From Falsiroseomonas tokyonensis (GTDB lineage Bacteria; Pseudomonadota; Alphaproteobacteria; Acetobacterales; Acetobacteraceae), in NCBI RefSeq assembly GCF_019024325.1, contig NZ_JAFNJS010000013.1, forward strand, positions 1 through 64,000: DNA of 64,000 bases. Direction: 5' to 3'. The notes under the pieces are model-generated. The model ran no database searches. It had not been told where the DNA came from and saw nothing but the letters and a program-made list of their open reading frames with translations. Each line of letters begins with the position of its first letter. Within the stretch, counting starts at the first letter, position 1. The translations under genes and the position numbers were made by a program. Positions 24,062-40,826 of the stretch are shown here, in pieces.

Positions 24062-24976
24062 ATGATCCGCCGCCGCACCCTTGCCGCCGCCCTGCTGGCC
24101 CCTGCCCTTGCCGCCCCCCGCCTGGCCCGCGCCCAGTCCGGCTGGCGCGCCAATTACCGCGAGCTGCGCCTCGGCATCTCCTCGGCCGAGAATGAGCGCG
24201 ACGCGGTGGCCCGGCAGCAGCCCTTCCAGGACTATATCCAGCGCACGCTTGGCGTGCCGCTGCGCGTCTATCGCGCCACCGACTATGCCGGGGTGGTGGA
24301 AGCGCTGCGCAGCAGCAATGTGGAATTCGCCCGCTTCGGGCCCGCCACCTATGCCCTGGCCCGCCGCGTGATGGGCGAGCGCATCATCGCCTTCGCCCGC
24401 GACCGGGACAGTGAGGGCGGCACCGGCTATCACAGCGTCGCTTTCGTGAAGGCGGACAGCCCCTATCGGCGGATCGAGGATCTGCGCGGCAAGTCCTTCG
24501 CCTTCGCCGATCCCAATTCCACCTCCGGCTTCGCCTTCCCGGCCTATTTCCTGCGCAAGGAAGGCTTCGACCCCACCAGCTTCTTCGGCCGCACGGGCTT
24601 CTCCGGCAGCCATGAGCAGAGCGTCATCGCCGTGCTCAACGGCACCTACGATGCCGGCGCCACCTTCTGGTCCAATCCCACGCGCGGCAATATCCAGCGG
24701 ATGGAGGAGAAGGGCATGATCCAGCCCGGCACCACCCGCATCGTCTGGACCAGCCCGCTGATCCCGAATTCCCCCTGGGTGATGCGCGGCGACCTGCCGG
24801 CGGATCTGCGGCGGGACTGGGCTGCGGCGGTCTTCGCCATGCCGGAACGCGACCCCGCCGCCTTCGCCGTCGCCGCATCCGGCGCCATCGGCCTGGTGGA
24901 GACGACGCATGCCGACTATCTCGACGTGATCGCAGTGGTCGAGGAGAACCTGCAGCGCCGCCGCCAGCGCTCGTGA
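24062..24976 (+). CDS. phnD: Phosphonate/phosphate ABC transporter substrate-binding protein (PhnD)
   Basis: 304 aa periplasmic receptor for phosphonates or phosphite. Signal peptide about 1-25 (PRLARAQ). Family marks: LRLGISSAENERDAVARQQPFQDYI, a central GTGYHSVAFVK segment, FADPNSTSGFAFPAYFLRKEG and NGTYDAGATFWSN. Followed with a 4-base overlap by two permease genes. Unusually there is no phnC ATPase in the cluster, so energisation must come from a protein encoded elsewhere. Confidence 0.93.
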   Translation: MIRRRTLAAALLAPALAAPRLARAQSGWRANYRELRLGISSAENERDAVARQQPFQDYIQRTLGVPLRVYRATDYAGVVEALRSSNVEFARFGPATYALARRVMGERIIAFARDRDSEGGTGYHSVAFVKADSPYRRIEDLRGKSFAFADPNSTSGFAFPAYFLRKEGFDPTSFFGRTGFSGSHEQSVIAVLNGTYDAGATFWSNPTRGNIQRMEEKGMIQPGTTRIVWTSPLIPNSPWVMRGDLPADLRRDWAAAVFAMPERDPAAFAVAASGAIGLVETTHADYLDVIAVVEENLQRRRQRS

Positions 24977-25836
24977 GCGCATCCCTCGCCGCGGCCGAAC
25001 AGGCCTGGCAGCGGCAGACAAGCCGGCGGCGGCTGGCGCGCGGTCTGTGGCTGGCGGTCTTCCTTCTGCTGGTCGCGGTGGCGGCGCAGCTGGGCGAGGT
25101 GAGCCTCGCGCGGCTGGCCGCCGGCATCCCCATGGCGCTGGACTATATCTGGCGCACCATCCCCGTGCTGCGGGCGGAGACGCTTTGGGCCGATCTCGCC
25201 GAGTGGATGTGGGGGCTCGACCTGTGGGTCGGCCTGCTGCTGGACACCGTGCTGATCGCCTATACCGGCACGGTGCTGGGCGCGGGCGCGGCGCTGCTGC
25301 TGTCCTTCCCTGCCGCCACCACCTTGGCGCCGGCCTGGTCCGTCTCCGTCACCCGGCGGCTGCTGGAGCTGGCGCGTACGGTGCCGGTGCTCGTCTTCGC
25401 GCTGATCTTCGTCTACGCCTTCGGCCTCGGCCCCTTCGCCGGCGTGTTGGCGATCGCGCTCCACACCATGGGCGCGCTCGGCAAGCAGTTCGCGGAGCTG
25501 CATGAGAATGCCGATCTGGGCCCGGTGGATGCGCTGCGCGCCACCGGCAGCGGCTGGGGCCAGGCCATGCGCTACGGCGTGCTGCCGCAATCCCTGCCCG
25601 GGCTGCTGTCCCTCGGCCTGCTGCGCTTCGAGATCAATGTGCGGGAGGCCTCGGTGCTCGGCATCGTCGGCGCCGGCGGGATCGGGGAGGAGCTGTACCT
25701 CTCCGTCCGTCAATTCTCCTACCCGGACATCTCCGCCATCCTGCTGCTGATCCTGCTGGCAGTGACGCTGATCGACCTGGGCTGCGAGCGCCTGCGGCAT
25801 CGCGTGATCGGCGCCGAGGCGCTGCGCGCGGCATGA
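24973..25836 (+). CDS. phnE: Phosphonate ABC transporter permease (PhnE)
   Basis: 287 aa from a GTG that overlaps the phnD TGA (GTGA). About six transmembrane helices and a BPD_transp_1 domain. The cytoplasmic EAA-like loop reads DALRATGSGWGQAMRYGVLPQSLPG, followed by REASVLGIVGAGGIGEEL, the typical PhnE ending. Start and stop overlaps on both sides indicate translational coupling in phnD-phnE-phnE. Confidence 0.92.
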   Translation: MSASLAAAEQAWQRQTSRRRLARGLWLAVFLLLVAVAAQLGEVSLARLAAGIPMALDYIWRTIPVLRAETLWADLAEWMWGLDLWVGLLLDTVLIAYTGTVLGAGAALLLSFPAATTLAPAWSVSVTRRLLELARTVPVLVFALIFVYAFGLGPFAGVLAIALHTMGALGKQFAELHENADLGPVDALRATGSGWGQAMRYGVLPQSLPGLLSLGLLRFEINVREASVLGIVGAGGIGEELYLSVRQFSYPDISAILLLILLAVTLIDLGCERLRHRVIGAEALRAA

Positions 25837-26600
25837 GGGCGCTGCGCGGCGCGCCGCTGATCTTCGGCGCCGGCTTCCTGCTGCTGGTGGTCGGCCTCTG
25901 GCGCGTCGATGCCTCGCCCGCCCGCGTGCTGGAGGGGGTGCAGAAACTGGGATGGCTGGTGGCGCTGATGTGGCCGCCCTCGCCCGGCGGTGCTTTGCGG
26001 GACCTGCTGGGCGCGCTGGCGGAGACGCTGGCCATGGCCTTCCTCGGCACGCTGCTGGCCGCCCTGGTGGCGCTGCCGCTGTCCTTCCTCGGCGCCGGCA
26101 ATGTCGTGGCGAACACCTTGGCGCGCTTCACCATCCGCCGCAGCTATGACGGGCTGCGCGCAGTGGATAGCCTGGTCTGGGCGCTGATCTTCGTCTCCGC
26201 CGTCGGCATGGGCCCCTTTGCCGGCATCCTGGCGCTGGCCGTGCCGGATACCGGCATGCTGGCCAAGGTCTTTGCCGAGGCGCTGGAATCCGCCGAGCGT
26301 CGGCAGGTGGAGGGCGTGCGCGCCGCGGGCGGATCCCGCCTGCAGGCCATCCGCTTCGGGCTGCTGCCGCAGGCAGCACCCGTGATGCTGGCGCAGGTGC
26401 TCTATACCTTCGAATCCAACACGCGCTCCGCCACCATCCTCGGCGTGGTAGGCGCCGGCGGCATCGGCCTGGCCTTGTCCGACCGCATCCGAATCAACAA
26501 CTGGGATCAGGCCGCCTTCATCGTACTGATGATCCTGGTGGCCGTTGGTGTCATCGACTGGTGCAGCCGCCGGCTGCGATTGAGGCTGATCCGCGCATGA
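25833..26600 (+). CDS. phnE: Phosphonate ABC transporter permease (second PhnE)
   Basis: 255 aa, ATG overlapping the first phnE stop (ATGA). Same fold as its neighbour: EAA-like loop GVRAAGGSRLQAIRFGLLPQAAPV and ATILGVVGAGGIGLAL. The two PhnE proteins are clearly paralogous and probably form a heterodimeric channel. Its stop overlaps the start of the hexapeptide-repeat protein. Confidence 0.92.
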   Translation: MRALRGAPLIFGAGFLLLVVGLWRVDASPARVLEGVQKLGWLVALMWPPSPGGALRDLLGALAETLAMAFLGTLLAALVALPLSFLGAGNVVANTLARFTIRRSYDGLRAVDSLVWALIFVSAVGMGPFAGILALAVPDTGMLAKVFAEALESAERRQVEGVRAAGGSRLQAIRFGLLPQAAPVMLAQVLYTFESNTRSATILGVVGAGGIGLALSDRIRINNWDQAAFIVLMILVAVGVIDWCSRRLRLRLIRA

Positions 26601-27256
26601 CCATCTACCAGGATCCCGCCACGGCGAAGAAGCAGCTGGGACTTGAGCCCTGCATCGACCCCACCGCCAGCGTGCGCGACACGCGCTTCGGCATCTACAC
26701 GGAAGTCGGCGCCCGCACCTCGATCGCGGAGACGGAGTTCGGCGACTACTCCTACGTCGTGCACGACAGCCAGATCATCTACGCGACGATCGGCAAGTTC
26801 TGCTCCATCGCCAGCCACACGCGCGTCAATCCTGGCAATCATCCGCTGGAACGCGTGGCGCTGAGCCATGTCACCTATCGCGCCAGCGCCTATGGCCTGG
26901 GTGCCGACGAGGCCGGCTTCTTCGACTGGCGGCGCGGCTTCCGCGTGACGCTGGGACATGACGTCTGGCTCGGCCATGGCGTCATCGTGCTGCCGGGCGT
27001 CAGCATCGGCACCGGCGCGGCCATCGGCGCCGGCGCCGTGGTGACGAAGGACATCCCGCCCTATGCCATCGCGGTCGGGAATCCGGCACGCGTGCTGCGT
27101 TTCCGCTTCAGCGAAGCGGTGCGCGAAAGCCTGCAGCGCATCGCCTGGTGGGACTGGACACGGGAGCAATTGGCGAGCGGTCTGGATGACATGCGGAAGA
27201 TGTCCGCAGAGTCCTTCTGCCAGAAATACGACCCGGCCTTCTGTCACAAAGACTAA
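26597..27256 (+). CDS. Hexapeptide-repeat acyltransferase of phosphonate loci
   Basis: 219 aa, ATG at 26597 overlapping the phnE stop. Left-handed beta-helix acyltransferase: imperfect hexapeptides from about residue 24 (IDPTASVRDTRFGIYTEVG) to about 165, including IGKFCSIASHTRVNPGNHP and GHDVWLGHGVIVLPGVSIGTGAAIGAGAVVTKDIPPYAIAVGNPA. The pattern and the phn context fit the transferase family found with phosphonate genes (DapH/LacA-like), possibly acetylating aminoalkylphosphonates or a processed intermediate. That role is inference. Confidence 0.82.
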   Translation: MTIYQDPATAKKQLGLEPCIDPTASVRDTRFGIYTEVGARTSIAETEFGDYSYVVHDSQIIYATIGKFCSIASHTRVNPGNHPLERVALSHVTYRASAYGLGADEAGFFDWRRGFRVTLGHDVWLGHGVIVLPGVSIGTGAAIGAGAVVTKDIPPYAIAVGNPARVLRFRFSEAVRESLQRIAWWDWTREQLASGLDDMRKMSAESFCQKYDPAFCHKD

Positions 27257-27324
27257 GCACAGCCGTCACAAGACGGTCGCCACTCCCCGGCTAAGCCCCG
27301 CCGCATCGGATGGAGCGGCGCAGC

Positions 27325-28890
27325 ATGGCCAGGCGGAAGAATGTACTTCTCATCGTGGTGGATCAGTGGCGGGCGGACTTCGTGCCCGCCCTCGGCGCGG
27401 ACTTCCTGCGCACGCCGAACCTGGACCGGCTGTGCCGCGAGGGCGTGACCTTCCGCAACCATGTGACGAACACCGTGCCCTGCGGCCCGGCCCGCGCCAG
27501 CCTGCTGACAGGCCTGTACCTGATGAACCATCGCGCCGTGCAGAACACGGTGCCGCTGGATGCGCGCCACACCAATCTCGGCAAGCAGCTGCGCCTGATC
27601 GGCTACGACCCCGCGCTGATCGGCTATACGACGACCACGCCGGACCCGCGCAGCACCGGCCCGAAGGACCCGCGCTTCACCACGCTCGGCGACCTGATGG
27701 ACGGTTTCCGCAGCGTCGGCGCCTTCGAGCCGAACATGGACGGCTATTTCGGCTGGCTGGCGCATCAGGGCTATGAGTTGCCCGCGAAGCGCGAGGATAT
27801 CTGGCTGCCGGAAGGCGAGGATGCCGTGCCGGGTGCGACGAACCGCCCCTCCCGCATCCCGAAGGAACTGTCGGACACCACCTTCTTCACGGAAAAGGCG
27901 CTGACCTATCTGAAGGGCAAGGGCGACAAGCCCTGGTTCCTGCACCTCGGCTACTACCGTCCGCATCCCCCCTTCATCGCGCCGGCACCCTACAACACGA
28001 TGTACGACCCGGCCGACATGCCGGCGCCGATCCGGGCCGCGCGTTGGGAGGAGGAGGCCGCACAGCATCCGCTGCTGCGCCACTATCTAGGCGCCATCGG
28101 CCAGGCGTCCTTCTTCCGCGGCGGCCAGGGCGCCGGCGCCGGGCTGGACGAGGCCAGCATTCGCCAGATGCGTGCCAGCTATTGCGGGCTGATGACCGAG
28201 ATCGACGACGCGCTGGGCCGCGTCTTCGCCTATCTCGAACAGACCGGGCAGTGGGATGACACGACCATCATCTTCACCTCCGACCATGGCGAGCAGCTCG
28301 GCGACCATTGGCTGCTCGGCAAGCTCGGCTATTTCGACGAAAGTTTTCGGATTCCGCTGGTCATCAAGGGCGCGGGTGCGCGCCCGGGTGTCATCGATGA
28401 CACGCTGACCGAAAGCGTGGACGTGATGCCGACCATCCTCGACATCCTCGGCGGCGAGGTGCCGCGCGCCTGCGACGGCCGTTCTCTGCTGCCGGTGCTG
28501 GCCGGCGAGACGCCCGCGGATTGGCGCAAGCTGCTGCACTACGAATACGACTACCGCGACATCCACTACTCGCAGCCCGAGACGGCGCTGGGGCTGACGA
28601 TGGACACGTCGAGCCTCTGCGTCGTGCAGGACGCCGACTACAAATATGTGCACTTCGCCGCCCTGCCGCCGCTGTTCTTCGACCTGAAGCGCGACCCGAA
28701 CCAGTTCGAGAACCGCGCCGAGGACCCCGACTACGCGGCGCGCGTGAAGGACTATGCGCAGCGCGCGCTGTCGCTGCGCCTCAGCCACGCCGAACGCACC
28801 CTCACCCATTTCCGTGCCACGCCGCAGGGGCTGGAGGAGCGCCGCACGGCGCCCGCCGCGCAGCCCCCGCGCGCCGCCGCCGCCGAATAA
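27325..28890 (+). CDS. pehA: Phosphonate monoester hydrolase (formylglycine type)
   Basis: 521 aa from the ATG at 27325, matching known enzymes that begin MxxRKNVLLIVVDQWRADF (an ATG at 27310 is less likely). Alkaline phosphatase superfamily enzyme hydrolysing phosphonate monoesters and phosphodiesters, with promiscuous sulfatase activity. Metal Asp13 in VVDQWR; Cys53 in VPCGPARASLLTG fits the CxPxR site converted to formylglycine, the nucleophile; FTSDHGEQLGDH carries further metal ligands. Other marks: GYYRPHPPF and HYEYDYRD. By recall the chain follows Rhizobium/Burkholderia PMH nearly end to end. No signal peptide. No formylglycine-generating enzyme in the window. Lies between the phn genes and four peptide-type receptors, 11 bases from the first. 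Confidence 0.93.
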   Translation: MARRKNVLLIVVDQWRADFVPALGADFLRTPNLDRLCREGVTFRNHVTNTVPCGPARASLLTGLYLMNHRAVQNTVPLDARHTNLGKQLRLIGYDPALIGYTTTTPDPRSTGPKDPRFTTLGDLMDGFRSVGAFEPNMDGYFGWLAHQGYELPAKREDIWLPEGEDAVPGATNRPSRIPKELSDTTFFTEKALTYLKGKGDKPWFLHLGYYRPHPPFIAPAPYNTMYDPADMPAPIRAARWEEEAAQHPLLRHYLGAIGQASFFRGGQGAGAGLDEASIRQMRASYCGLMTEIDDALGRVFAYLEQTGQWDDTTIIFTSDHGEQLGDHWLLGKLGYFDESFRIPLVIKGAGARPGVIDDTLTESVDVMPTILDILGGEVPRACDGRSLLPVLAGETPADWRKLLHYEYDYRDIHYSQPETALGLTMDTSSLCVVQDADYKYVHFAALPPLFFDLKRDPNQFENRAEDPDYAARVKDYAQRALSLRLSHAERTLTHFRATPQGLEERRTAPAAQPPRAAAAE

Positions 28891-28901
28891 GGAGCCCCGC
28901 C

Positions 28902-30524
28902 ATGCAGATCTCCCGCCGCCTGGTCCTGGCCGCGCCCGCTTTGGCGCTGCCACGCTTCGCCATCGCGCAGGCCGACAACCGGCCTTCCATCACCATCGCC
29001 GTGCAGAAGGTGGTGAACAGCAACACGCTCGAAGTGCTGCGCGAGCAGTCGAATGTGGGCGAGCGCGTCTTCTTCTCCTCGCTCTGGGAAGGGCTGATCA
29101 GCCGCGACTGGCTGGGCGAGCTCGGCGCCGTGCCGGGGCTGGCCACCGAATGGCGCCGCATCTCCGACCAGGTGGTGGAGCTGAAGCTGCGCCCCGGCGT
29201 GCGCTTCCACAATGGCGACGAGATGACGGCGGAAGACGTCGTCTTCTCCTTCTCCCGCGACCGCATGTTCGGCACCACGCTGGCCACCGCCCAGGGCCGC
29301 ACCATCCCGATCGGCGAAGGCATGCCCGCGCCGCGCCCCGGCAAGGAACTGCCGCCGGAGGTGCCCGCCGTGGCGCGCCGGTCCTGGCCCGCGCTGGAGC
29401 GTGTGGAGGCCGTGGACAAGTACACGGTGCGCTTCCACAACGCGACGCCGGACGTGACGCTCGAAGGCCGCCTCTCGCGCTATGGCAGCGAGATCATGAG
29501 CCGCCGCGGCTTCGAGGAATCCTCGAGCTGGCTGGAATGGGCGCGCAAGCCGATCACCACTGGACCTTATATGGTGGCGGAATACCGCCCCGACGTGTCG
29601 CTGACCCTCGTCGCGCATGATGCCTACTGGGGCGGCCGCCCGCCGCTGAAGCAGATCCGCTTCGTCGAGGTGCCGGAGGTTTCCTCCCGCATCAATGGCC
29701 TGCTCTCCGGCCAGTTCCAATTCGCCTGCGACCTGCCGCCGGACCAGATCCCGGGCGTCGAATCCAACGCGGCCTTCGAGGTGCAGGGCGGCACCATCCT
29801 GAACCATCGGCTGATCTGCTTCGACAAGACCTATCCCGCGCTGCGCGATGCCCGCGTGCGCCGTGCCATCACGCATGCGATGGACCGCCAGGCGATCGTG
29901 GACAGCCTCTGGGCCGGTCGCACGCAGGTGCCGAAGGGCCTGCAATGGCCGTACTACGACCAGATGTTCCATTCGGATTGGTCGGTGCCCGCCTATGACC
30001 CGGCACTGGCCCGCCGCCTGCTGCGGGAGGCGAACTACCGCGGCGAGCCGATCCCCTATCGCCTGCTGAACAATTACTACACCAACCAGAACGCGACCGC
30101 GCAGGTGTTGGTCGAGATGTGGCGCCAGGTCGGCCTGAACGTGCAGATCGAAATGAAGGAAAACTGGTCGCAGATCCTGGAGCGCAGCCCGACGCGCGCC
30201 GTGCGCGACTGGTCCAACAGCGCGCCCTTCAACGATCCCGTCTCCTCCATCGTCAACCAGCACGGCCCGAACGGCCAGCAGCAGCAGGTCGGCGAATGGA
30301 CGAATGAGGAGATGAACCGCCTGTCCGTCGAGCTGGAAACCAGCACGGATCGCGCCCGCCGCCGCGCCGTCTTCCGCCGCATGCTGGAGATCTGCGAGCG
30401 CGAGGACCCCGCCTATACCGTGATCCACCAGAACGCGACCTTCACGGCGAAGCGCAAGGATATCCGCTGGAAGAGCAGCCCCGCCTTCGCGATGGACTTC
30501 CGCAGCGGCAATTGGGGGGCCTGA
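28902..30524 (+). CDS. Family-5 ABC substrate-binding protein (tandem copy 1 of 4)
   Basis: 540 aa from the ATG at 28902 behind AAGGAG. Signal peptide to about residue 24 (LPRFAIAQA). SBP_bac_5 (peptide/nickel/opine receptor class): TIAVQKVVNSNTLEVL, VRFHNGDEMTAEDVVFSFS, FACDLPPDQIPG and RVRRAITHAMDRQAIVDSLWAGR. The very conserved block RLLNNYYTNQNATAQVLVE near residue 388 recurs in the next three genes. It is one of four receptors feeding the OppDFBC-like transporter downstream. Likely ligands are phosphonate esters or phosphodiesters, inferred only from the neighbouring hydrolase. Confidence 0.92.
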   Translation: MQISRRLVLAAPALALPRFAIAQADNRPSITIAVQKVVNSNTLEVLREQSNVGERVFFSSLWEGLISRDWLGELGAVPGLATEWRRISDQVVELKLRPGVRFHNGDEMTAEDVVFSFSRDRMFGTTLATAQGRTIPIGEGMPAPRPGKELPPEVPAVARRSWPALERVEAVDKYTVRFHNATPDVTLEGRLSRYGSEIMSRRGFEESSSWLEWARKPITTGPYMVAEYRPDVSLTLVAHDAYWGGRPPLKQIRFVEVPEVSSRINGLLSGQFQFACDLPPDQIPGVESNAAFEVQGGTILNHRLICFDKTYPALRDARVRRAITHAMDRQAIVDSLWAGRTQVPKGLQWPYYDQMFHSDWSVPAYDPALARRLLREANYRGEPIPYRLLNNYYTNQNATAQVLVEMWRQVGLNVQIEMKENWSQILERSPTRAVRDWSNSAPFNDPVSSIVNQHGPNGQQQQVGEWTNEEMNRLSVELETSTDRARRRAVFRRMLEICEREDPAYTVIHQNATFTAKRKDIRWKSSPAFAMDFRSGNWGA

Positions 30525-30527: not shown

Positions 30528-32096
30528 ATGCTCCGCCGCCGTTCGCTGCTGGCCGCGCCGCTCGGCGCGGCGCTCGCCGCGCCCGCTTTCGCGCAGGCCG
30601 ATACGCGGCCCGTCATCACCATCGCGGTGCAGGACATCAGCACCTCGAACATGCTGGAGATGCTGGCCGAGCAGTCGAATGTCGGCACCCGCATCTTCCG
30701 CAACTATGTCGAGCCGCTGGTCGATACCGACTGGATCGGCGACATGTCGATGAAGCCGGGCCTCGCCACCTCCTGGCGCCGCATCGATGACCGCAGCGTG
30801 GAATTCACGCTGCGCGAGGGCGTGCGCTTCCACAATGGCGATCCGCTGACGGCGGAGGAGGTCGCCTTTTCCTTCGGGCCGGAGCGCATGTGGGGCGGCG
30901 GCCCGGAAGGGGCAAAGGCCCCGCCCGCCGGCGCCGCGCAGACGGCGCGCCGCATCTTCCCCGGCTTCGAACGGATGGAGGTGGTGGATGCGCGCACCGT
31001 CCGCCTCATCAACCGCACGCCGGACCTGACGCTGGAAGGCCAGATGGCGCGCACCGCCGCCGTCATCGCCAATCGCCGCGCCTTCGAAGCGGCGCCGAGC
31101 TGGCAGGACTGGGCGCGCAGGCCCATCGGCACCGGCCCCTACTTCGTCGCGGAGTACCGGCCCGACCAGATCCTGGTGCTGGAGGCTTTCGACCAGCACT
31201 GGCAGGGCCGCCCGCCGATCCGTCGGCTGCGCTTCGTTCAGGTGCCGGAAGTGGCGTCGCGCATCAATGCACTGCTCTCCGGCGAGGCGGACTTCGCCTG
31301 CGACATCCCGCCCGACCAGATCCTGCAGATCGAGCGCAACGCGCGCTTCGAGGTCGCCGGCGGGCCGATCAACAACACCCGCATCATCTGCTTCGACCAG
31401 CAGCACCCGGTGCTGGCCAATCCGCTGGTGCGCCGCGCACTGAGCCACAGCATCGACCGGCAGGCGATCGTCGATGCGCTCTGGGCCGGGCGCGTTTCCA
31501 TCCCGCGTGGCCTGCAATGGGACTTCTACGACGACATGCTGGTGGCCGATTGGCAGGTACCGCGCTTCGACCTGGCCGAGGCACGTCGCCTGCTGCGCCA
31601 GGCGAATTACCGCGGCGAGCCGATCCCCTATCGCTGCCTGAACAACTACTACACCAACCAGACCGCGACCGCGCAGATCCTGATCGAGGGCTGGCGCGCC
31701 GCCGGCGTGAATGTCCAGCTGCAGATGATGGAGAATTGGGGCCAGATCACCGGCCGCGCGACGCAGCCGGGAATCCGTGACTGGTCGCAATCCTCCTCCC
31801 TGCCCGATCCCGTCGCGCAGATGGTGCCGAATTACGGCCGCGGCGGCGCGCCCTGGGTGCGCGGCGAATGGCGGAATGAGCGCTTCGGCACGCTGGCCGA
31901 GGAGCTGCAATCCAGCACCGATCGTCCGCGCCGCAAGCAGGTGTGGGCCGAGATGCTGCAGATCATCGAGCGTGACGACCCCGCCTACACCGTCCTGCAC
32001 CGCAACGGAAACTTCACCGCCAAGCGCCGCGACATCGCCTGGCGCGCCGCGCAGTCCTTCACCATGGACTTCCGCGCGAGCAATTGGGGAGCCTGA
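30528..32096 (+). CDS. Family-5 ABC substrate-binding protein (tandem copy 2 of 4)
   Basis: 522 aa, 3 bases after copy 1. Signal peptide about 1-24 (AAPAFAQA). Shares the whole plan of copy 1: TIAVQDISTSNMLEML, VRFHNGDPLTAEEVAFSFG, FACDIPPDQI, LSHSIDRQAIVDALWAGR and CLNNYYTNQTATAQ, ending in TMDFRASNWGA. The most divergent region is around residues 120-150 (WGGGPEGAKAPPAG), lining the cleft entrance in related folds, which suggests a different ligand. No lipobox, so soluble periplasmic. Confidence 0.92.
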   Translation: MLRRRSLLAAPLGAALAAPAFAQADTRPVITIAVQDISTSNMLEMLAEQSNVGTRIFRNYVEPLVDTDWIGDMSMKPGLATSWRRIDDRSVEFTLREGVRFHNGDPLTAEEVAFSFGPERMWGGGPEGAKAPPAGAAQTARRIFPGFERMEVVDARTVRLINRTPDLTLEGQMARTAAVIANRRAFEAAPSWQDWARRPIGTGPYFVAEYRPDQILVLEAFDQHWQGRPPIRRLRFVQVPEVASRINALLSGEADFACDIPPDQILQIERNARFEVAGGPINNTRIICFDQQHPVLANPLVRRALSHSIDRQAIVDALWAGRVSIPRGLQWDFYDDMLVADWQVPRFDLAEARRLLRQANYRGEPIPYRCLNNYYTNQTATAQILIEGWRAAGVNVQLQMMENWGQITGRATQPGIRDWSQSSSLPDPVAQMVPNYGRGGAPWVRGEWRNERFGTLAEELQSSTDRPRRKQVWAEMLQIIERDDPAYTVLHRNGNFTAKRRDIAWRAAQSFTMDFRASNWGA

Positions 32097-33718: not shown

Positions 33719-35328
33719 GCATGACCGGAATTACTCGTCGCGCCCTTCTCGGGGCCCCGACCCTGCTGGCGATGCCGGCCATCGCCCAAGGCGACGATCG
33801 GCCCACGCTGACCATCGCCGTGCAGAAGCTGTCGAACTCGAACACCTTTGAGCCGCCGCGCGAACAATCCAATGTCGGCTTCCGCATCCACGGCCTCTAT
33901 GCGGAACAGCTGGTCGGCACCAACTGGCTCGGCAACGCGGAACTGGTTCCGGGGCTCGCCACGGCATGGCGCCGCCCGGATGCCGCCACGCTGGAGCTTA
34001 CGCTGCGGCAGGGCGTGCGCTTCCATGACGGGCGGGAGATGACGGCGGAAGATGTCGCCTTCTCCTTCGGCGAGCGCCTGTTCGGAACACAGGGCGCGAC
34101 GGGCGCGGGGCGATCCGGCGTGCTGGCAGGCACTGCGACGAAGGAGCCGCCGGCCGAGGTCGTGGCCGTCAGCCGCCGCACCTATCCGGGCCTGGAGCGG
34201 ATCGAGATCACGGGGCGCAACACGCTGCGCTTCATCAACCGCACGCCGGATGTGACGCTGGAAGGCCGCCTGGCGCAGAGCGTCGGCGCCATCCTCTCCA
34301 GCCAGGCTTTCGCCGCGGCGCCGAGCTGGCTGGAATGGGGCCGCGCACCCGTCGGCACGGGCCCCTATCGCATCGCGGATTTCCGCCCCGACACCTTCCT
34401 CGTCATGGAAGCGCATGACAGCTACTGGGGCGGTCGGCCGCCGGCGCGGCGCCTGCGCTTCGTCGAGGTGCCGGAAGTCTCCGGTCGTGTGAACGGCCTG
34501 TTCTCCGGCGAGTACGACTTTGCCTGCGACATTCCACCCGACCAGATCAGCGTCGTGGAACGCAACAGCCGGTTCGAGGTCCTCGGCAGCCCCATCAACA
34601 ACATCCGCAAGCTGGCCTTCGACAAGACCAACCCCGTGCTGGCCGATGCGCGCATCCGCCGTGCCATGACCCATGCCATCGACCGGCGCGTGCTGGTGGA
34701 GACGCTCTGGGCCGGGCGCACCGCGATTCCGCGCGGCATGCAGCTGGAAAGCTACGGCGCCATGTATCTGCAGGACTGGGAGAATCCGCGCTTCGACCCG
34801 ACGGAGGCGCGCCGGCTGCTGCGGGAGGCGAACTACCAGGGCCAGCCGATCACCTATCGCCTGCTGAACAACTACTACACCAACCAGGTCGCCAGCGGGC
34901 AGATCGCCGTCGAGATGTGGCGCGCCGTGGGGCTGAACGTGCAGATCGAGATGCTGGAGAACTTCTCCCAGGTCACTGCCCGCACGCCGGGGCGCGGCAT
35001 TCGCGACTGGTCCAACACCTCCATCTTCGGCGATCCCGTCGCCGGCATCCTGCGCAGCTTCGGCCCGCGCACCGAGGCCGAGCGCAATGGCGAATGGGCG
35101 AATGAGGAGTTCAACCGCGTCACCACCGCGCTGGAAGCCGAGACCGACCTCGAACGTCGGCGCGAGATGTTCCGCCGCCTGCTGACAATCGTGGAGCGTG
35201 AAGACCCGGGCTACATCGTGCTGCACCAGGCAGCCGCCTTCACGGCGAAGCGCAAGGACATCCAATGGCGCGCCGCGAATGGCTGGGCGATGGTCTTTGG
35301 ACCCGGCAATCTGCGTGTCGGCGCATGA
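33715..35328 (+). CDS. Family-5 ABC substrate-binding protein (tandem copy 4 of 4)
   Basis: 537 aa from 33715 (ATGA overlap; a second ATG at 33721 is possible). Signal peptide about 1-23 (AMPAIAQG). TIAVQKLSNSNTFEPP, VRFHDGREMTAEDVAFSFG, FACDIPPDQIS, THAIDRRVLVETLWAGR and LLNNYYTNQVASGQIAVE. Its C-terminus (AMVFGPGNLRVGA) departs from the MDFR..NWGA ending of the other three. Overlaps the ATPase gene by 4 bases, binding the receptors to the transporter operon. Confidence 0.92.
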   Translation: MSMTGITRRALLGAPTLLAMPAIAQGDDRPTLTIAVQKLSNSNTFEPPREQSNVGFRIHGLYAEQLVGTNWLGNAELVPGLATAWRRPDAATLELTLRQGVRFHDGREMTAEDVAFSFGERLFGTQGATGAGRSGVLAGTATKEPPAEVVAVSRRTYPGLERIEITGRNTLRFINRTPDVTLEGRLAQSVGAILSSQAFAAAPSWLEWGRAPVGTGPYRIADFRPDTFLVMEAHDSYWGGRPPARRLRFVEVPEVSGRVNGLFSGEYDFACDIPPDQISVVERNSRFEVLGSPINNIRKLAFDKTNPVLADARIRRAMTHAIDRRVLVETLWAGRTAIPRGMQLESYGAMYLQDWENPRFDPTEARRLLREANYQGQPITYRLLNNYYTNQVASGQIAVEMWRAVGLNVQIEMLENFSQVTARTPGRGIRDWSNTSIFGDPVAGILRSFGPRTEAERNGEWANEEFNRVTTALEAETDLERRREMFRRLLTIVEREDPGYIVLHQAAAFTAKRKDIQWRAANGWAMVFGPGNLRVGA

Positions 35329-36308
35329 GCGCGCCGCTCGTCGCCATCAAGGGCCTGCGCGTCAGCTTCGATGGGCAGGCCGCGCTGCGCGGCATCGACC
35401 TGGATGTCGCGCCCGGTGAATCCGTCGGCCTTGTCGGTGAATCCGGCTGTGGCAAGTCCGTCACCTGGCTGGCCGCGCTGGGCCTGCTGCCCGGCCGCGC
35501 CAGCATTTCCGGCAGCGTGAAACTGGATGGGCAGGAGTTGTTGCCAGCGCGGCCGCAGGTGCTGGACCGCGTGCGCGGTGGCCGCATCGCCATGATCTTC
35601 CAGGACCCCGCCAGCAGCCTCAACCCGGTGCATCGCATCGGCAAGCAGATCACGGAGGCGCTGCGCCTGCATCGCGGCATGGATGGCCCGCAGGCGCGTG
35701 CCGAGGCCAAACGCCTGCTGGACCAGGTCGGCATCCCCGACGCCGCGCGTCGTCTGGATGCCTGGCCGCACGAGCTTTCGGGCGGGCAGAACCAGCGCGT
35801 GATGATCGCCATCGCGCTGGCCGGCCGCCCCGAATTGCTGGTGGCGGATGAGCCGACCACGGCGCTCGATGTCACCATCCAGGCGCAGATCCTGGCCTTG
35901 CTGCAGGACCTGCGGAAGGAGACCGGCATGGCGCTGGTGTTGATCTCGCACGATCTCGGCGTGGTCGCCGATAGCTGCGAGCGCGTCTGCGTCATGTATG
36001 CCGGGCGCATCGTCGAACAGGTGCCCACTGCGCGGCTGTTCGAGGCGCCGGCGCATCCCTATACGCGCGGCCTGCTCGGCGCGCTGCCGCCGCTGCATGG
36101 GCCGCGCCGCCCGCTTTCCGCCATCCCCGGCAGCGTGCCGGAACCCTGGGCCATGCCGCCCGGCTGCGCCTTCGCGCCGCGCTGCGCCATGCATGTCTCG
36201 GCCTGCGACGCGGCGGTGCCGGAGCCGGTGGGCCTGGCGCGCAACCATCGCGCCGCCTGCATCCGTGCCACCCTTCCCGCCCCGCATCCGGAGAACGCCT
36301 ACGCATGA
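35325..36308 (+). CDS. Oligopeptide-type ABC transporter ATP-binding protein (OppD-like)
   Basis: 327 aa from the ATG at 35325 (ATGA overlap with copy 4). Walker A GESGCGKSV near residues 39-47, Q-loop MIFQDPASSLNP, signature LSGGQNQR, Walker B LLVADEPTTALD, switch SHDLGVV. The C-terminal oligopeptide-transporter extension is present (PAHPYTRGLLGALPP, then a Cys-rich PPGCAFAPRCAMHVSAC, which in this family can bind an Fe-S cluster). Pairs with the OppF-like protein. Confidence 0.93.
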   Translation: MSAPLVAIKGLRVSFDGQAALRGIDLDVAPGESVGLVGESGCGKSVTWLAALGLLPGRASISGSVKLDGQELLPARPQVLDRVRGGRIAMIFQDPASSLNPVHRIGKQITEALRLHRGMDGPQARAEAKRLLDQVGIPDAARRLDAWPHELSGGQNQRVMIAIALAGRPELLVADEPTTALDVTIQAQILALLQDLRKETGMALVLISHDLGVVADSCERVCVMYAGRIVEQVPTARLFEAPAHPYTRGLLGALPPLHGPRRPLSAIPGSVPEPWAMPPGCAFAPRCAMHVSACDAAVPEPVGLARNHRAACIRATLPAPHPENAYA

Positions 36309-37309
36309 GGAAGGATGGGGAACTGCTGGTCGCGCAGGGCATCACGCGGCGCTACGCGATGCGGCGGGGCGTGCTGGGCAGGTCGGTCGAGGTGCGCGCC
36401 GTCGATGGCGTTTCGCTGACGCTGGAACGGGGCCGCACGCTGGGTCTCGTCGGCGAATCCGGCTGCGGCAAATCCACCACCGGGCGCCTGGTGCTGGGGC
36501 TGGAACGGCCGGATGACGGCAGCGTGGCCTTCGAGGGCCGCCCCATGCCGACGCCGAACACGCCAGAATGGCGCAAGCTGCGCGCGCGCATGCAGATGGT
36601 CTTCCAGGACCCGCTCGGCGCGCTGGATCGCCGCCTGCCGATCGGCGCGCAGGTGGCGGAGCCGCTGGAGATCCACAACGTGGGAACGCCGGCCGAACGC
36701 GCCACGCGCGTCGCCGAACTGCTGCGCGGCGTCGGGCTGCGCCCCGACCAGGCCGCGCGCTATCCGCACGAACTCTCGGGTGGCCAACGCCAGCGCGCCG
36801 TGCTGGCTCGCGCGCTGGCCACCGATCCTTCCCTGCTGGTCTGCGATGAGCCGATCAGCGCGCTGGATGTCTCGATCCAGGCGCAGGTGATGAACCTGCT
36901 GGTGGAGCTGCAATCCCGCCTCGGCCTCGGCATCCTGTTCATCAGCCACGACCTGCGGGCCGTGCGGCAGGTCAGCCACCGCGTCGCCGTGATGTATCTC
37001 GGCCGCATCGTTGAGGAGGGCGAGCCGGACGAGGTGCTGCACGACCCGGCGCATCCCTACGCGCAGGCCCTCGTCTCCGCGATCCCGCATCCCGGCAAGA
37101 TCGGCCGCGGCATCGTGCTGCAGGGCGATCCGCCGAACCCCGCAGACCGCCCCTCCGGCTGCGCCTTCCATCCGCGCTGCGCCGTCGCCTCCGCGCTGTG
37201 TGCGCGCGAAACGCCCGTGCTGAAGCCACGCCCCGGCGACGGCCGCCGCGTCGCCTGCCATGTGGCCCAGGGCGAGATCGCGCCCGGCACTCTGCAGAAG
37301 GCCGCCTGA
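36305..37309 (+). CDS. Oligopeptide-type ABC transporter ATP-binding protein (OppF-like)
   Basis: 334 aa, ATGA overlap with the OppD-like gene. Walker A GESGCGKST, Q-loop MVFQDPLGALDRR, signature LSGGQRQR, Walker B LVCDEPISALD, switch SHDLRAV. C-terminal PAHPYAQALVSAIPHP and the Cys-containing SGCAFHPRCAVASALC. It forms the second nucleotide-binding subunit of the heterodimer. Confidence 0.93.
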   Translation: MRKDGELLVAQGITRRYAMRRGVLGRSVEVRAVDGVSLTLERGRTLGLVGESGCGKSTTGRLVLGLERPDDGSVAFEGRPMPTPNTPEWRKLRARMQMVFQDPLGALDRRLPIGAQVAEPLEIHNVGTPAERATRVAELLRGVGLRPDQAARYPHELSGGQRQRAVLARALATDPSLLVCDEPISALDVSIQAQVMNLLVELQSRLGLGILFISHDLRAVRQVSHRVAVMYLGRIVEEGEPDEVLHDPAHPYAQALVSAIPHPGKIGRGIVLQGDPPNPADRPSGCAFHPRCAVASALCARETPVLKPRPGDGRRVACHVAQGEIAPGTLQKAA

Positions 37310-37310
37310 C

Positions 37311-38246
37311 ATGATGCGATTCCTCGCCAGCCGCCTGCTGCGTGCCGCCATCACCATCATCATGGTGGTGACCTTCGCCTTCGTCGTGCTGCGCCTGTCC
37401 GGCGACCCCGCGCAGATCATCATGGGCGCCGATGCGCCGCCCGAGGCCGTCGACGCCTTCCGCACCGCATGGGGCCTCGATCAGCCGGTCTGGCTGCAAT
37501 ACTTCCACTACTTCGGCGCCATCTTCCAGGGCGACCTCGGGCGGTCCATGCGCGACGGGCGCGACGCCATCGTGCTGGTGACGGAGCGCATTCCCGCCAC
37601 GCTGGCGCTGACCATCCCGGCGCTGATCATCAAGCTCGGCCTCGGCATTCCCGCTGGCATCACCGCAGCTCTGCACCGCAATTCCTTCATCGACCGCGCC
37701 GTGATGCTGCTGGCCGTCGCGGGCTTCACTGTGCCCTCCTTCGTGCTGGGCCTGCTGCTGGTGCTGGTCTTTGCCGTGCAGCTCGGATGGCTGCCTTCCG
37801 GCGGTCAGGAAAGCTGGCGCCACGCCATCCTGCCCATCATTACCATGGGCGTCGGCGGCGCCGCCGTCCTCGCCCGCTTCACCCGCTCCGCCATGCTCGA
37901 AGTGCTGGGCCAGCCCTATATCCGCACCGCCTCCGCCAAGGGCGTGCCGTGGCACGCCGTGGTCTGGGGGCACGCGCTGCCGAACGCCGCCATCCCCACC
38001 GTCACCATCGTGGGCTTCATGGTCGGCAGCCTGATCGCCGGCGCCGTCGTCGTCGAAAGCGTCTTCTCCTGGCCCGGCGTCGGCCGCCTGCTCGTCGTCG
38101 CGGTCGCCAATCGGGACCTCGCCGTCGTGCAATGCATCCTGCTGCTGGTCGCGGCCACCATGGTCACCGCCAACCTGGTGGTGGATCTGCTCTACGGCCT
38201 GCTGGACCCGCGGCTTCGCAACCAACCCAAGCGCGCGGCGGCCTGA
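37311..38246 (+). CDS. Oligopeptide-type ABC transporter permease (OppB/DppB-like)
   Basis: 311 aa from the first of two adjacent ATG codons at 37311, one base after the OppF stop. Six helices; N-terminal FLASRLLRAAITIIMVVTFAFVVLRLSGDPA is the family's first helix. EAA-like loop with YIRTASAKGVPWHAVVWGHALPNA, then VESVFSWPGVGRLLVVAV. Codons here end overwhelmingly in C or G. Confidence 0.93.
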   Translation: MMRFLASRLLRAAITIIMVVTFAFVVLRLSGDPAQIIMGADAPPEAVDAFRTAWGLDQPVWLQYFHYFGAIFQGDLGRSMRDGRDAIVLVTERIPATLALTIPALIIKLGLGIPAGITAALHRNSFIDRAVMLLAVAGFTVPSFVLGLLLVLVFAVQLGWLPSGGQESWRHAILPIITMGVGGAAVLARFTRSAMLEVLGQPYIRTASAKGVPWHAVVWGHALPNAAIPTVTIVGFMVGSLIAGAVVVESVFSWPGVGRLLVVAVANRDLAVVQCILLLVAATMVTANLVVDLLYGLLDPRLRNQPKRAAA

Positions 38247-38249
38247 ACC

Positions 38250-39128
38250 ATGTCCGACATCACCGCCCCCCTCACTTTGTCCACCACCGCGCCCCGCAAG
38301 GCGCGGCCTCTGCCGCCGCCGATGGTGATCTTCGGCCTGCTCTGGCTGAGCCTGATGCTGGCCACCGCGCTGCTGGCCGATGTCATCAGCCCCTACGCCT
38401 ACACAGCCCTCGACCTGCGCAACCGCCTCTCGCCCCCCATCGGCATGGGCGGCACCTGGCTGCATCCGCTGGGCACCGACGAGCTCGGCCGCGACGTGCT
38501 GGCGCGGCTGATCTACTCGATCCGCATGAGCCTGCTCATCGCCTTCGGCGCCACCCTCATCGGCGCCGTCATCGGCACCACGCTGGGCTTCCTCGCCGCC
38601 CACTTCCGCGGCTTCGTCGAACAGGTCGTCCTGGCCCTCGTCGACTTCTCCGCCAGCCTGCCCTTCCTGATCCTGGCGCTGTCGGTCCTCGCCTTCTTCG
38701 GCAACTCCATGGTGCTGTTCATCTGCCTGCTCGGCTTCCACGCCTGGGAACGCTACGCCCGCATCGCCCGGGGCCTCGCCATCTCCGCCAGCGGGCAGGG
38801 CTACGCCGCCGCCGTGCGCCAGCTCGGCGCCTCCCCCTGGCGGATCTACGGCCGCCACGTGCTGCCGAACATCGCCTCCACCCTCATCGTCTCGATGACC
38901 CTGGCCTTCCCGGAAATCATCCTGCTGGAATCCGGCCTCTCCTTCCTCGGCCTCGGCGTGCAACCACCCGCCACCTCGCTCGGCTCCATGGTCGGCTACG
39001 GCCGCGAATACCTGACCCGCGCCCCCTGGATCCTCCTCGCCCCAGCCTTCACCATCATCCTCACCACCCTCTCCGTCTCCCTCCTCGGCGACTGGCTCCG
39101 CGACCGGCTGGACCCGACCCTGCGGTGA
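38250..39128 (+). CDS. Oligopeptide-type ABC transporter permease (OppC/DppC-like)
   Basis: 292 aa, 3 bases after OppB. N-terminal extension, first helix near residues 28-50, then LGTDELGRDVLARLIYSIRMSLLIAFGAT, typical of DppC/OppC. EAA loop region YAAAVRQLGASPWRIYGRHVLPNI and ESGLSFLGLGVQPPATSLGSMV. Last gene of the transporter block; the hairpin array starts 22 bases after its stop. Codons in its second half are strongly C-ending, in contrast to the next gene. Confidence 0.93.
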   Translation: MSDITAPLTLSTTAPRKARPLPPPMVIFGLLWLSLMLATALLADVISPYAYTALDLRNRLSPPIGMGGTWLHPLGTDELGRDVLARLIYSIRMSLLIAFGATLIGAVIGTTLGFLAAHFRGFVEQVVLALVDFSASLPFLILALSVLAFFGNSMVLFICLLGFHAWERYARIARGLAISASGQGYAAAVRQLGASPWRIYGRHVLPNIASTLIVSMTLAFPEIILLESGLSFLGLGVQPPATSLGSMVGYGREYLTRAPWILLAPAFTIILTTLSVSLLGDWLRDRLDPTLR

Positions 39129-39149
39129 GGTTGGGTTGCGCGGGTGATT

Positions 39150-39355: not shown

Positions 39356-39401
39356 GAACCACCCGTGCAAAACCTCCCTCAACCTCAGGAGTCAGAAGTC
39401 C

Positions 39402-40826
39402 ATGCCCCGTTACGTGCTGGTCGCCTTGGATGGGTTGCGGCCGGACATGGTGTCGGTCGAGGCGACGCCGAATCTGGCGGCCCTGGTGGCTGCGGGGACG
39501 CGGCTTGCGAATGCGCGGAGTGTGTTCCCGAGTGAGACGCGCGTGGCGACGCCGTCCTTGATCACGGGCTGCCGGCCGGGTGGGCATGGCATGGTGGCGA
39601 ATACGCTGTTCGATGCGGCGGTGGCGTCGGATCGCTTGTTGCGCACGAAGCTTGTGGCGGATGTGCTGGCCATGGCGCAGGGGCGGGAGAGTCCTCTGGA
39701 GCGTCCGAGCCTGGGCGAGCGCCTGGCCGAGGCCGGGCGCAGTTTTGCGCTGGTGAGCGCCGGCACGGCGGGCGCGGCACGGCTGCTGCATCCGGCGGCG
39801 GAGCGGCTGGGCGGCTTTCGCTGGAATGTCGAGGATAGCGAGGGCGCGACGGCGGCGGAGGTGCGCGCGGCCCTGGGCGAGACGCCGCCGCATGCCGTGC
39901 CCAATCTCGGCCGGGTGGCGCATGCCGGGCGGGTGCTGCTGGAGCATGTGCTGCCGAAGCTGCGGCCGGATGTCGCGCTGCTGTGGTTGTCGGAGCCGGA
40001 TATCGCCTTCCATTGGGGCGGGCTGCTCTCGGCCGAGGCGCGGGAAGGGTTGCGGGCGGCGGATGCGGTGCTGGGCCGGATCGTGGCCTGGCGGGATGCG
40101 CAGCCGGATGCGGCGGAGATCGGCCTGATCGTGCTGTCCGACCATGGGCATGTGACGGGGCGCGGCAAGATTTCGCTGGCGGCGGAGTTGCGGCGCGCGG
40201 GTTTTCGCGCCGGCACCGGCATGGCGGCGGATGTGGATGTGGTGGTGGCGCCCGCCGCCGCGCCCGGGCTGTGGTTCCGCGACCCGGCGCTGGCGCCGCA
40301 GGTGGCGGAGTTCCTGGCAACCCAGGCCTGGGCCGGGCCGCTGCTGGCGCGCGATCCGGCCATCCTGCCCGCCGGCCAGGCGATGGCGCTGTCGGTGCTC
40401 GCCAGCGGGCATCGCCGCAGCGCCGATCTGGTGGCGACCTTCGCCGGCAGTGCGGAGGCGGATGAATGGGGCCTGGCCGGCCATGCGCCCTTCGATGCGC
40501 CGGATGTGCCGGAGGGTGGCGGCATGCATGGCGGGCTGCATCGGGCGGAGCTGGCGACGGTGCTGGTGATGCAGGGCGGCCCCTTCCGCCGCGGCGCCGT
40601 GGCGCAGGCGCCGGCGGACCTGACCGATATCGCGCCCACCGTGCTCCACCTGCTGGGCCTGGGCACGGAGGGCTGCGAGGGCCGCCCGCTGGCCGCCGCC
40701 TGGGACGCGGCACGCGACACCGCGCCGATCCATGAACTGGTGGAGATGCCGCGCGGCTTCGTGCTGGAGGCGTTGCGGGCGGAGCCGGGCGGCCGGCTCT
40801 ACCCGACGGGAATGGTGCGCGCCTAA
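39402..40826 (+). CDS. Alkaline phosphatase superfamily phosphodiesterase (nucleotide pyrophosphatase-like)
   Basis: 474 aa from the ATG at 39402 (TCAGGA before it; the frame is open earlier across the hairpins). Cleaves phosphodiester or phosphonoester bonds in related enzymes. Metal Asp in VALDGLRPDM, candidate nucleophile Thr in FPSETRVATPSLITG, second-site residues in SEPDIAFHWGG, VLSDHGHV and the late GGMHGGLHR. No signal peptide, so probably cytoplasmic. It follows the transporter block, suggesting it processes imported esters. Codon use favours G- and T-ended codons compared with oppB/oppC. Its stop overlaps the convergent AapJ-like gene by 4 bases. Confidence 0.88.
   Translation: MPRYVLVALDGLRPDMVSVEATPNLAALVAAGTRLANARSVFPSETRVATPSLITGCRPGGHGMVANTLFDAAVASDRLLRTKLVADVLAMAQGRESPLERPSLGERLAEAGRSFALVSAGTAGAARLLHPAAERLGGFRWNVEDSEGATAAEVRAALGETPPHAVPNLGRVAHAGRVLLEHVLPKLRPDVALLWLSEPDIAFHWGGLLSAEAREGLRAADAVLGRIVAWRDAQPDAAEIGLIVLSDHGHVTGRGKISLAAELRRAGFRAGTGMAADVDVVVAPAAAPGLWFRDPALAPQVAEFLATQAWAGPLLARDPAILPAGQAMALSVLASGHRRSADLVATFAGSAEADEWGLAGHAPFDAPDVPEGGGMHGGLHRAELATVLVMQGGPFRRGAVAQAPADLTDIAPTVLHLLGLGTEGCEGRPLAAAWDAARDTAPIHELVEMPRGFVLEALRAEPGGRLYPTGMVRA

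Follow-up and report, generated by a model that had tools for sequence, protein, structure and literature searches.

The acc operon of Agrobacterium plasmids, which serves the uptake of agrocinopine and agrocin 84, is the closest whole system to the locus described here. In the study of its receptor (PMC4526662), the operon is set out as AccA-AccBCDE-AccF-AccG, in which a family-5 receptor is followed by two ATPases and then two permeases, and an intracellular phosphodiesterase is encoded together with the importer. The same study reports that the ligands of AccA are phosphodiesters (agrocinopine is an opine that is itself a sugar phosphodiester), that N54, S419, Y375 and Y376 grip the phosphate with N284 as a hinge contact, and that OH1 of the sugar is anchored by E510 together with N54, N284 and S419 (PMC4526662). 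We describe a cluster of 14 genes, all on the plus strand at positions 24062–40826 of the first 64,000 nucleotides of a contig of Falsiroseomonas tokyonensis (NZ_JAFNJS010000013.1, assembly GCF_019024325.1; this whole stretch is ‘the window’ below). Gene calling and profile searches bear out the kinds of gene that a first-pass annotation had named there, and the locus is made up of two modules: a core of one phosphonate monoester hydrolase/phosphodiesterase (PMH, also PehA), four AccA-type receptors, oppDFBC and a PF01663-type phosphodiesterase, and a second module of phnD, two phnE genes and a hexapeptide-repeat transferase. The core is quite probably an Acc-like importer for phosphodiesters and/or phosphonate monoesters, which PMH and the phosphodiesterase would cut in the cytoplasm.

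PMH enzymes are model promiscuous catalysts. Neither a natural substrate nor an entry route is, to our knowledge, established for them, and none is named in the literature searched (titles and abstract openings, among the matches); in the same material PMH enzymes of the 2vqr/2w8s type are not tied to an importer, and no open-licence record joins PMH or phosphonates to an Acc-type importer. Each part of the window locus is already known. Its core shares with the acc operon the phosphate contacts of the family-5 receptor, the order of receptor, ATPases and permeases, and the pairing with an intracellular diesterase; an operon of this kind also stands in one of the plasmid loci examined (L249; loci, genomes and contigs carry our own L, G and C numbers). 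The window differs from it in having PMH and a PF01663 enzyme as diesterases where L249 has a GDPD-family gene, in having four receptors rather than one, in the replacement of AccA's E510 and W178, and in the phn block alongside. An inositol-phosphatase-type AccG, a DeoR-type AccR and a GDPD, as in L249, were found neither among the 14 genes nor in the flanking genes scanned. To judge from sequence, the window core seems to work like acc, but it is not filed as an acc member, the sugar-side contacts and the L249 partners being missing. The first-pass annotation knew of no described system with this exact combination; the agrocinopine operon, which has been described, is a close analogue.

AccA-type receptors and the Opp-type importer

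The four receptors match SBP_bac_5 at 214–245 bits (Pfam), and the nearest solved relative of each is AccA (253–272 bits, against 97–142 for the next family). When a model of receptor 1 (mean pLDDT 78) was searched with Foldseek, AccA chains filled all of the top 11 places. Pocket positions were compared using a chain-to-paper numbering of AccA fixed by the agreement of the letters N54, W178, N284, M372, Y375, Y376, S419, T430, E434 and E510. All four window receptors retain N54, N284, Y375, Y376 and S419 (N51, N301, Y392, Y393 and S438 in the numbering of receptor 1), whereas across receptors 1–4 the E510 position is occupied by F, F, F and W, and the W178 position by Y, T, N and S. This five-residue set is complete in 78 of 82 receptors linked to PMH genes (82 from 84, omitting those of L061 and L125; 81 are distinct, L050 being the same as L121). 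Thirty SBP5 proteins from elsewhere in the genome served as controls (30 of its 57 other matches: the 29 strongest outside the cluster and one at 45415), and none of these has more than one of the five. In a conservation set of 78 linked receptors, which further omits L038, L045, fragments and one duplicate, at least 95% of the sequences agree with AccA at only 65 of the 453 aligned positions, and all five residues are among these (p = 5e-5); the remaining pocket contacts (E510, W178, M372, T430 and E434) are retained in only 0–1% of PMH-linked receptors. Because the five contact residues are retained and E510, W178 and the others are replaced, the phosphorus grip appears to be preserved in the linked receptors and the rest of the pocket not.

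A tree of the receptors, which has long branches such that some joins may be false, places those of the window within the Acc-type family (63 of 68 rows, support 95/89), not grouping with AccA itself. Receptor 1 clusters with receptors that come after PMH in Acetobacteraceae and Rhizobiales, and in most linked loci it is the receptor 1 orthologue that stands behind PMH; receptors 2–4 lie in a separate 24-row group (100/100) with the second receptors of Bosea and Arenibaculum. The loci have one to five receptors each, apart from that of F. selenitidurans (L018), where six receptor matches lie behind PMH at 11639–20735 and a gene 26% like the phosphodiesterase stands between the first two.

Could this be an ordinary oligopeptide, dipeptide or nickel importer that lies between hydrolase genes by chance? 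Pfam and NCBIfam do put its parts in the Opp/Dpp/Nik superfamily, but the four receptors, both ATPases and both permeases fall below every Opp/Dpp/Nik NCBIfam cut-off (for the ATPases, among the best 25 of 186 and 181 models). The receptors are of AccA type by sequence, fold, tree and pocket, and the importer has a conserved linkage to diesterases, all of which makes such an account extremely improbable; an ordinary oligopeptide importer was rejected on receptor kinship together with the sub-cut-off scores. The OppB permease is about 51% identical to permeases of Agrobacterium plasmids that lie about 2 kb behind AccA-type receptors. The first-pass annotation had supposed that the transporter imports esters and had taken opine-only receptors as a counter-case. 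AccA does bind an opine, yet that opine is a phosphodiester, and import of phospho- or phosphono-esters is very probable because all four receptors are of AccA type with the phosphate contacts and both hydrolases recur beside such importers. As their kinship and residues suggest, the receptors would hold a small diester-like molecule in the periplasm by its phosphate or phosphonate group, using the conserved Asn, Ser and Tyr-Tyr pair. The four paralogues, which differ on the other side of the pocket, probably take different alcohol or sugar parts, and a single OppDFBC importer would be common to all of them.

Linkage to PMH and apparent exchange of the diesterase

The window PMH aligns with the solved PMH/PehA enzymes over 496 residues (855.8 bits to 2vqr, 855.2 bits to 2w8s), carries the same formylglycine motif (CGPAR) at the aligned position, and passes the equivalog cut-off. 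A signal peptide is not evident by eye in its translation. One open frame elsewhere in the genome is an FGE-family gene (PF03781 matches of 91.8 and 24.1 bits), a candidate for maturing PMH. The nearest relatives of the enzyme are 95% identical and occur in Falsiroseomonas and Roseomonas oleicola; it is 72.8% identical to the product of a gene on plasmid pRL9 of Rhizobium johnstonii, where the PMH gene is followed by an AccA-type receptor and oppDFBC. On pRL9 this set lies among sugar importers and a phosphotriesterase homologue (L083, 5316–25500).

The linkage was followed through 45 named loci with a close PMH (64–96% identity). In 32 of these the flanks hold a receptor and oppD, oppF, oppB and oppC, in nine they hold part of the set and in four none of it; the 45% identity threshold lets oppD and oppF cross-match, and the 32 complete loci are those recounted from non-overlapping matches. 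Six of the nine partial loci are ones in which the stretch or contig ends (L017, L018, L032, L035, L052, L055); the others are L049, L056 and L061, the last counted as partial because its receptor is below the threshold. Some genomes occur under two labels (L017/G396, L018/G392, L055/G388, L024/G397, L019/G398 and L050/G087), and each count is drawn from one source. Linkage is found in Acetobacteraceae, Arenibaculum, Bosea, Rhizobium and others, usually with PMH first, although the importer comes first in L050 (= L121), L052, L061 and L116–L118. In L061 (Pseudochelatococcus) the set opens with a PhnF-like gene (148 bits, cut-off 157) and a TIGR03308 gene in either order, continues with an importer 50–52% identical to that of the window and a near-AccA receptor (506 bits to AccA, with E510 and W178 present), and ends with a PMH that shares 75% identity with the window enzyme. 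The conserved linkage in related genomes on which the first-pass annotation had staked its proposal is therefore borne out for the PMH-receptor-oppDFBC core.

An even sample of the class (385 genomes) gave a similar picture, in that linkage is complete in 6 of 10 PehA-grade loci outside the genome of F. tokyonensis and in 0 of 29 weaker PMH-like loci. The class yielded 82 PMH matches outside that genome, of which we looked at 40, made up of the 11 strongest and 29 from the remaining 71; the eleventh strong locus, L125, has a 742-bit PMH, an importer 40–47% identical and a receptor with four of the five residues, and was left out of both arms (counted as linked, it gives 7 of 11). Four of the 10 are without an importer, namely L120, L122, L124 and, at a contig end, L123. 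None of the 29 weaker class loci has a receptor at 45% identity (L144 and L146 have opp genes at 30–50%), and none of 21 weaker named PMH homologues has an importer match at that threshold (L065, L066 and L080 have opp-like matches at 33–38%). Seven SBP5-like frames were found in these 50 loci, each keeping 0–2 of the five AccA residues. The genome of F. tokyonensis holds a second, weaker PMH-like gene of 36% identity (L253, contig C2, 13127–14701) near an SBP5 receptor, L188, that keeps at most one of the five.

The second hydrolase of the core shares family, catalytic positions and fold with NPP/ENPP enzymes and phosphonoacetate hydrolase (PF01663): its Asp, Thr, Asp/His and Asp-His align to active-site positions of XaNPP, and Foldseek of its model, which at a mean pLDDT of 62 is supportive only, returned NPP/ENPP structures at 14–20% identity. 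As for PMH, a signal peptide is not evident by eye, and the first strand of the model starts at residue 3. The enzyme differs from NPP/ENPP in forming part of a distinct subfamily, whose members repeatedly lie next to Acc-type or related importers, including those of L218, L244 and L245, whose enzymes are 35–37% identical to it. It follows oppC at 76–82% identity in seven Roseomonad loci (L019–L023, L026, L048) and at 37–38% in L033, L034, L037, L046 and L060 (Bosea, Arenibaculum, Rhizobiales); the PF01663 family recurs beside Acc-type importers in Bosea, Arenibaculum, Bradyrhizobium, Nitratireductor and S. meliloti RU11.

Fourteen plasmid loci with AccA-like receptors were hand-picked to span lineages without a close PMH, from the best 40 of 258 and the best 50 of 248 records. 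An annotated phosphoesterase lies in the cluster in 13 of these (none in L220): a GDPD in L217, L221, L242, L243 and the acc-type operon of L249; a PF01663 enzyme, by Pfam, in L218, L244, L245 and L250, and also in L247 (69% identical to the L250 enzyme); a metallophosphoesterase in L218, L246 and L248; and a PMH-like enzyme in L219. Among 20 other SBP5 regions of the F. tokyonensis genome, a tested hydrolase family was found in one (the PMH-like gene of L253), a comparison in which only the control arm is informative, the profiles having been built from the positive loci and the positive arm being record annotation. Acc-type importers repeatedly have PMH and the PF01663 phosphodiesterase as partners, in alternation with GDPD or metallophosphoesterases. 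It looks as if the diesterase has been swapped behind a single type of importer, and this apparent exchange argues that phosphate diesters make up a part of the cargo at the least. Near the AccA-like importers of L219 and L245 (Roseibium and Nitratireductor plasmids) and of L218 lie a CDP-alcohol transferase, a DeoR regulator and an alkaline-phosphatase-family gene, joined in L219 and L245 by NTP transferase, GHMP kinase and asparagine-synthase-like genes; these are perhaps genes for synthesis of the imported compound.

The membership of PMH in the sulfatase superfamily (it has a Pfam Sulfatase match, and the NCBIfam name is phosphoric/sulfuric ester hydrolase) raises the thought that the cluster imports sulfated compounds. 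This is very improbable, as the second hydrolase is of NPP type, the neighbours are phn genes and the partners elsewhere are GDPD enzymes and metallophosphoesterases. In the reading as an importer of phosphorus esters, the formylglycine enzyme PMH and the NPP-type phosphodiesterase would, from their families, hydrolyse the ester in the cytoplasm to an alcohol plus a phosphomonoester or phosphonate, and these products would feed phosphatases or a C-P lyase encoded elsewhere in the genome.

The phn block and the nature of the cargo

The phnD-phnE-phnE-transferase block is also found in phnCDE-C-P lyase operons with TIGR03308, from which the window differs in having neither phnC nor C-P lyase genes, both being on other contigs. 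The two over-cut-off PhnC genes of the genome lie on C45 and C57; either one is accompanied by a pair of PhnE genes that pass their cut-off and by a PhnD-like gene that falls short of the one for PhnD. None of phnGHIJKLM is in the cluster; on contig C12, family models identify phnF, G, H, J, K, L and M, and phnI, which has no NCBIfam match at 1e-20, is assigned from its position and from tblastn against other C-P lyase loci. A complete PhnCDE system is ruled out, there being no phnC in the cluster. TIGR03308 is found in 22 of the 385 class genomes, 21 of which have phnJ, and 15 of its 24 places are within 8 kb of phnJ, with one more at about 11 kb. Among the other TIGR03308 loci (20 of 23 non-window places were examined), phnG–L genes are present in 12, and in nine the neighbouring match is phnE, on the same strand and within about 1.5 kb. 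Because TIGR03308 lies mostly near phnJ or phnG–L and phnE, the window block is best taken for the transport section of a C-P lyase operon that lacks phnC; PhnDEE would then borrow PhnC from another locus, and the transferase may acylate amino- or hydroxyphosphonates. TIGR03308 is described as a family of C-P lyase operons, a location that the window locus does not share. Five fetched stretches (L223, L224, L225, L227 and L228, from G040, G162, G260, G033 and the second copy of G361) show TIGR03308 with no phn gene, so members of the family also occur outside C-P lyase operons.

Within the genus (15 genomes including that of the window), phnJ is present in 15, the transferase in 14, PehA over its cut-off in 11 and an orthologue of phnD (at least 64% identity) in 10. 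In the 11 genomes with PehA, the transferase adjoins PMH in G000, G388, G392, G396 and G397, together with phnDEE in G000, G392 and G397; in G398 the phnDEE-transferase block lies about 2 kb behind the phosphodiesterase, and in the remaining five (G385, G386, G387, G391, G394) transferase and phnDEE are apart from PMH. The single organophosphonate island of the first-pass annotation did not survive this comparison: a fixed set of 14 genes is ruled out, the phn block being separable within the genus. Conserved linkage, found for the core, does not extend to the phn part, which is linked to PMH only within the genus, save that L061 has the transferase by itself. Even so, the transferase seems more closely tied than phnDEE to the import-and-cleave core, because it stays beside PMH in G388 and G396, where the orthologous phnD is missing from the genome, and because a TIGR03308 gene also lies near Acc-type importers in Pseudochelatococcus (with PMH) and Paracoccus.

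Several lines of evidence bear on whether the esters are phosphates or phosphonates. PMH has been reported to act on phosphonate monoesters and phosphodiesters alike (PMC5649143, extract). The presence of phnDEE-transferase beside the core in some species fits part of the cargo being phosphonate monoesters. In the class sample, phnJ was found in 10 of 11 genomes with a PehA-grade enzyme, in 25 of 59 with only a weaker PMH and in 30 of 315 without PMH (Fisher p 0.003 and 3e-9, ignoring phylogeny and genome size). In Roseibium, PhnF (188 bits, cut-off 157) lies beside a PMH-like gene and an Acc-type importer. On plasmids of S. chiapasense (L247) and S. meliloti M270 (L250), the genes of an Acc-type importer and a PF01663 enzyme continue directly into phnF and C-P lyase genes. 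The L247 genes form one run at 4610–14485 (permease-permease-AccA-like receptor-ATPase-ATPase-PF01663-type enzyme-phnF-phnG-H-I-J). In L250 (plasmid accessoryC, 637–19485) genes for a PEP (phosphoenolpyruvate) mutase (TIGR02320, 345 bits, cut-off 320), aminotransferases, a CDP-alcohol transferase and an asparagine-synthase-like protein adjoin those of the AccA-like importer, the PF01663 enzyme, phnF and C-P lyase; it is possible that this is a make-and-use cassette for a phosphonate ester.

A strong contender, if somewhat short of probable, is that the core serves phosphate diesters only (of glycerophosphodiester-, sugar-phosphodiester- or opine-like kinds), with PMH purely a phosphodiesterase and the phn block a chance neighbour. 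The ligands of AccA point this way, as do the GDPD-paired receptors of L217, L221 and L242 (plasmids of Rhizobium etli, Sinorhizobium sp. B11 and Rhizobium sp. K1/93), which nest within the PMH-linked clade, the pairing with PMH of an AccA near-orthologue with E510 and W178 in Pseudochelatococcus, and the absence of linkage to phnDEE in much of the genus. It is harder to square with the phn-family transferase near Acc-type importers in three lineages, with the PhnF genes by PMH or PMH-like clusters (over the cut-off in Roseibium, 148 bits against 157 in Pseudochelatococcus), with C-P lyase in 10 of the 11 PehA-grade class genomes, or with the two Sinorhizobium plasmids that join importer, PF01663 enzyme and C-P lyase. 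The opposite possibility, rather unlikely, is a dedicated route: the receptors would accept nothing but phosphonate esters, PMH would release the phosphonate, and PhnDEE would salvage for C-P lyase any phosphonate that is free or has leaked out. PMH is named for this activity, a relative has been suggested as an enzyme for phosphonate esters of marine polysaccharides (PMC5649143, extract), and the phn linkage and the co-occurrence with phnJ agree with it; the action of PMH on phosphodiesters in the same extract, the GDPD pairing of close receptor relatives and the lack of a Pho box in the cluster do not. A mixed or phosphate-diester cargo is slightly ahead of phosphonate esters alone.

A number of points weigh against the reading of the core as an Acc-like system of uptake and cleavage. 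PMH stands without an importer in 4 of the 45 named loci (L038, L045, L051 and L054) and, away from contig ends, in L120, L122 and L124 of the class sample; since some PehA loci have no importer nearby, PMH is not bound to it. Pocket conservation is in part the common descent of a single receptor clade, and in AccA the paper's Glu504 aligns to a Trp and its Tyr145 falls in an unaligned stretch. All five residues are kept in 10 of the 14 plasmid receptors, four in L218, L244 and L248, and only one in that of L245 (Nitratireductor), though it adjoins a PF01663 enzyme. Both phylogeny and genome size confound the association with phnJ, the hydrolase control is one-armed as described above, and the phn block is apart from PMH in the five genomes named. 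The GDPD pairing of nested receptors favours phosphate diesters as at least part of the cargo. A scan with the Rhizobium-type Pho box consensus gave no match in the cluster and one in the window (53131) against 2.24 expected; elsewhere it gave two in L014 against 0.69 expected and one in L015 against 0.63.

A broader view can be put forward tentatively, namely that Acc-type importers act among bacteria as a general entry route for phosphorus diesters, with agrocinopine uptake forming one branch, and that several branches feed C-P lyase and import phosphonate esters. The phosphate-gripping core would be largely kept, the alcohol side and the cytoplasmic diesterase (GDPD, PMH, PF01663 enzyme or metallophosphoesterase) would be exchanged, and the Falsiroseomonas cluster would be a multi-receptor branch. 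If so, PMH enzymes would gain a missing physiological role, the Acc system would extend beyond plant-tumour opines to the scavenging of phosphorus in general, and a way into the cell would be indicated for phosphonate esters; in the marine polysaccharide fraction examined in PMC5649143 (extract), about one fifth of the phosphorus is phosphonate. A conserved phosphate-gripping importer beside PMH makes the natural substrate of the enzyme testable through receptor binding. The S. meliloti plasmid importer has phosphonate-making genes (PEP mutase, CDP-alcohol transferase) on one side and C-P lyase on the other, which would suggest that opines or rhizopines have a phosphonate counterpart.

Layout of the cluster and neighbouring genes

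The features of the cluster are collected in the table. Gaps between genes are from -4 to +53 bp in 12 of 13 cases, and only the last, between oppC and the phosphodiesterase, is long (273 bp); a single transcript through oppC is therefore likely, and membership of the phosphodiesterase gene is less certain.

Table. Genes of the F. tokyonensis cluster, in window coordinates, with the matches that support each assignment.
Feature	Position	Strand	Evidence
phnD, phosphonate-type binding protein	24062..24976	+	TIGR03431 264.1 bits, cut-off 261.1
phnE permease 1	24973..25836	+	TIGR01097 253 bits, cut-off 217
phnE permease 2	25833..26600	+	TIGR01097 270.6 bits, cut-off 217
Hexapeptide-repeat transferase, phn family	26597..27256	+	TIGR03308 276 bits, cut-off 201.65
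PMH/PehA, phosphonate monoester hydrolase/phosphodiesterase	27310..28890 (start 27310 or 27325)	+	NF045661 958.9 bits, cut-off 900
AccA-type receptor 1	28902..30524	+	AccA best PDB match, 256 bits; next family 97
AccA-type receptor 2	30528..32096	+	AccA 253 bits; next 107
AccA-type receptor 3	32099..33718	+	AccA 272 bits; next 142
AccA-type receptor 4	33715..35328	+	AccA 262 bits; next 104
OppD-type ATPase	35325..36308	+	PF00005, PF08352; best NCBIfam model 323 bits, cut-off 575
OppF-type ATPase	36305..37309	+	PF00005, PF08352; best NCBIfam model 365.5 bits, cut-off 408
OppB-type permease	37311..38246	+	PF00528, PF19300
OppC-type permease	38250..39128	+	PF00528
PF01663 (NPP-type) phosphodiesterase	39402..40826	+	PF01663 95.1 bits, gathering cut-off 23

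Promoter and terminator scans did no better than on shuffled sequence, and a tRNA search of the window returned none. Upstream and divergent lies a 4-hydroxybenzoate 3-monooxygenase gene (22630–23814), a close relative of which borders the cluster in L017, L018 and L055; a histidine-phosphatase-family gene is found further out, at 20813–21379. Downstream, on the minus strand at 40823–44785, a family-3-type binding protein, a DctM-type permease and an NMT1-like binding protein form a TAXI/TRAP-like set. Beyond these, at 45415–49814, a further family-5 receptor, 25% identical to receptor 1 and without the AccA residues, is followed by two genes on the same strand.

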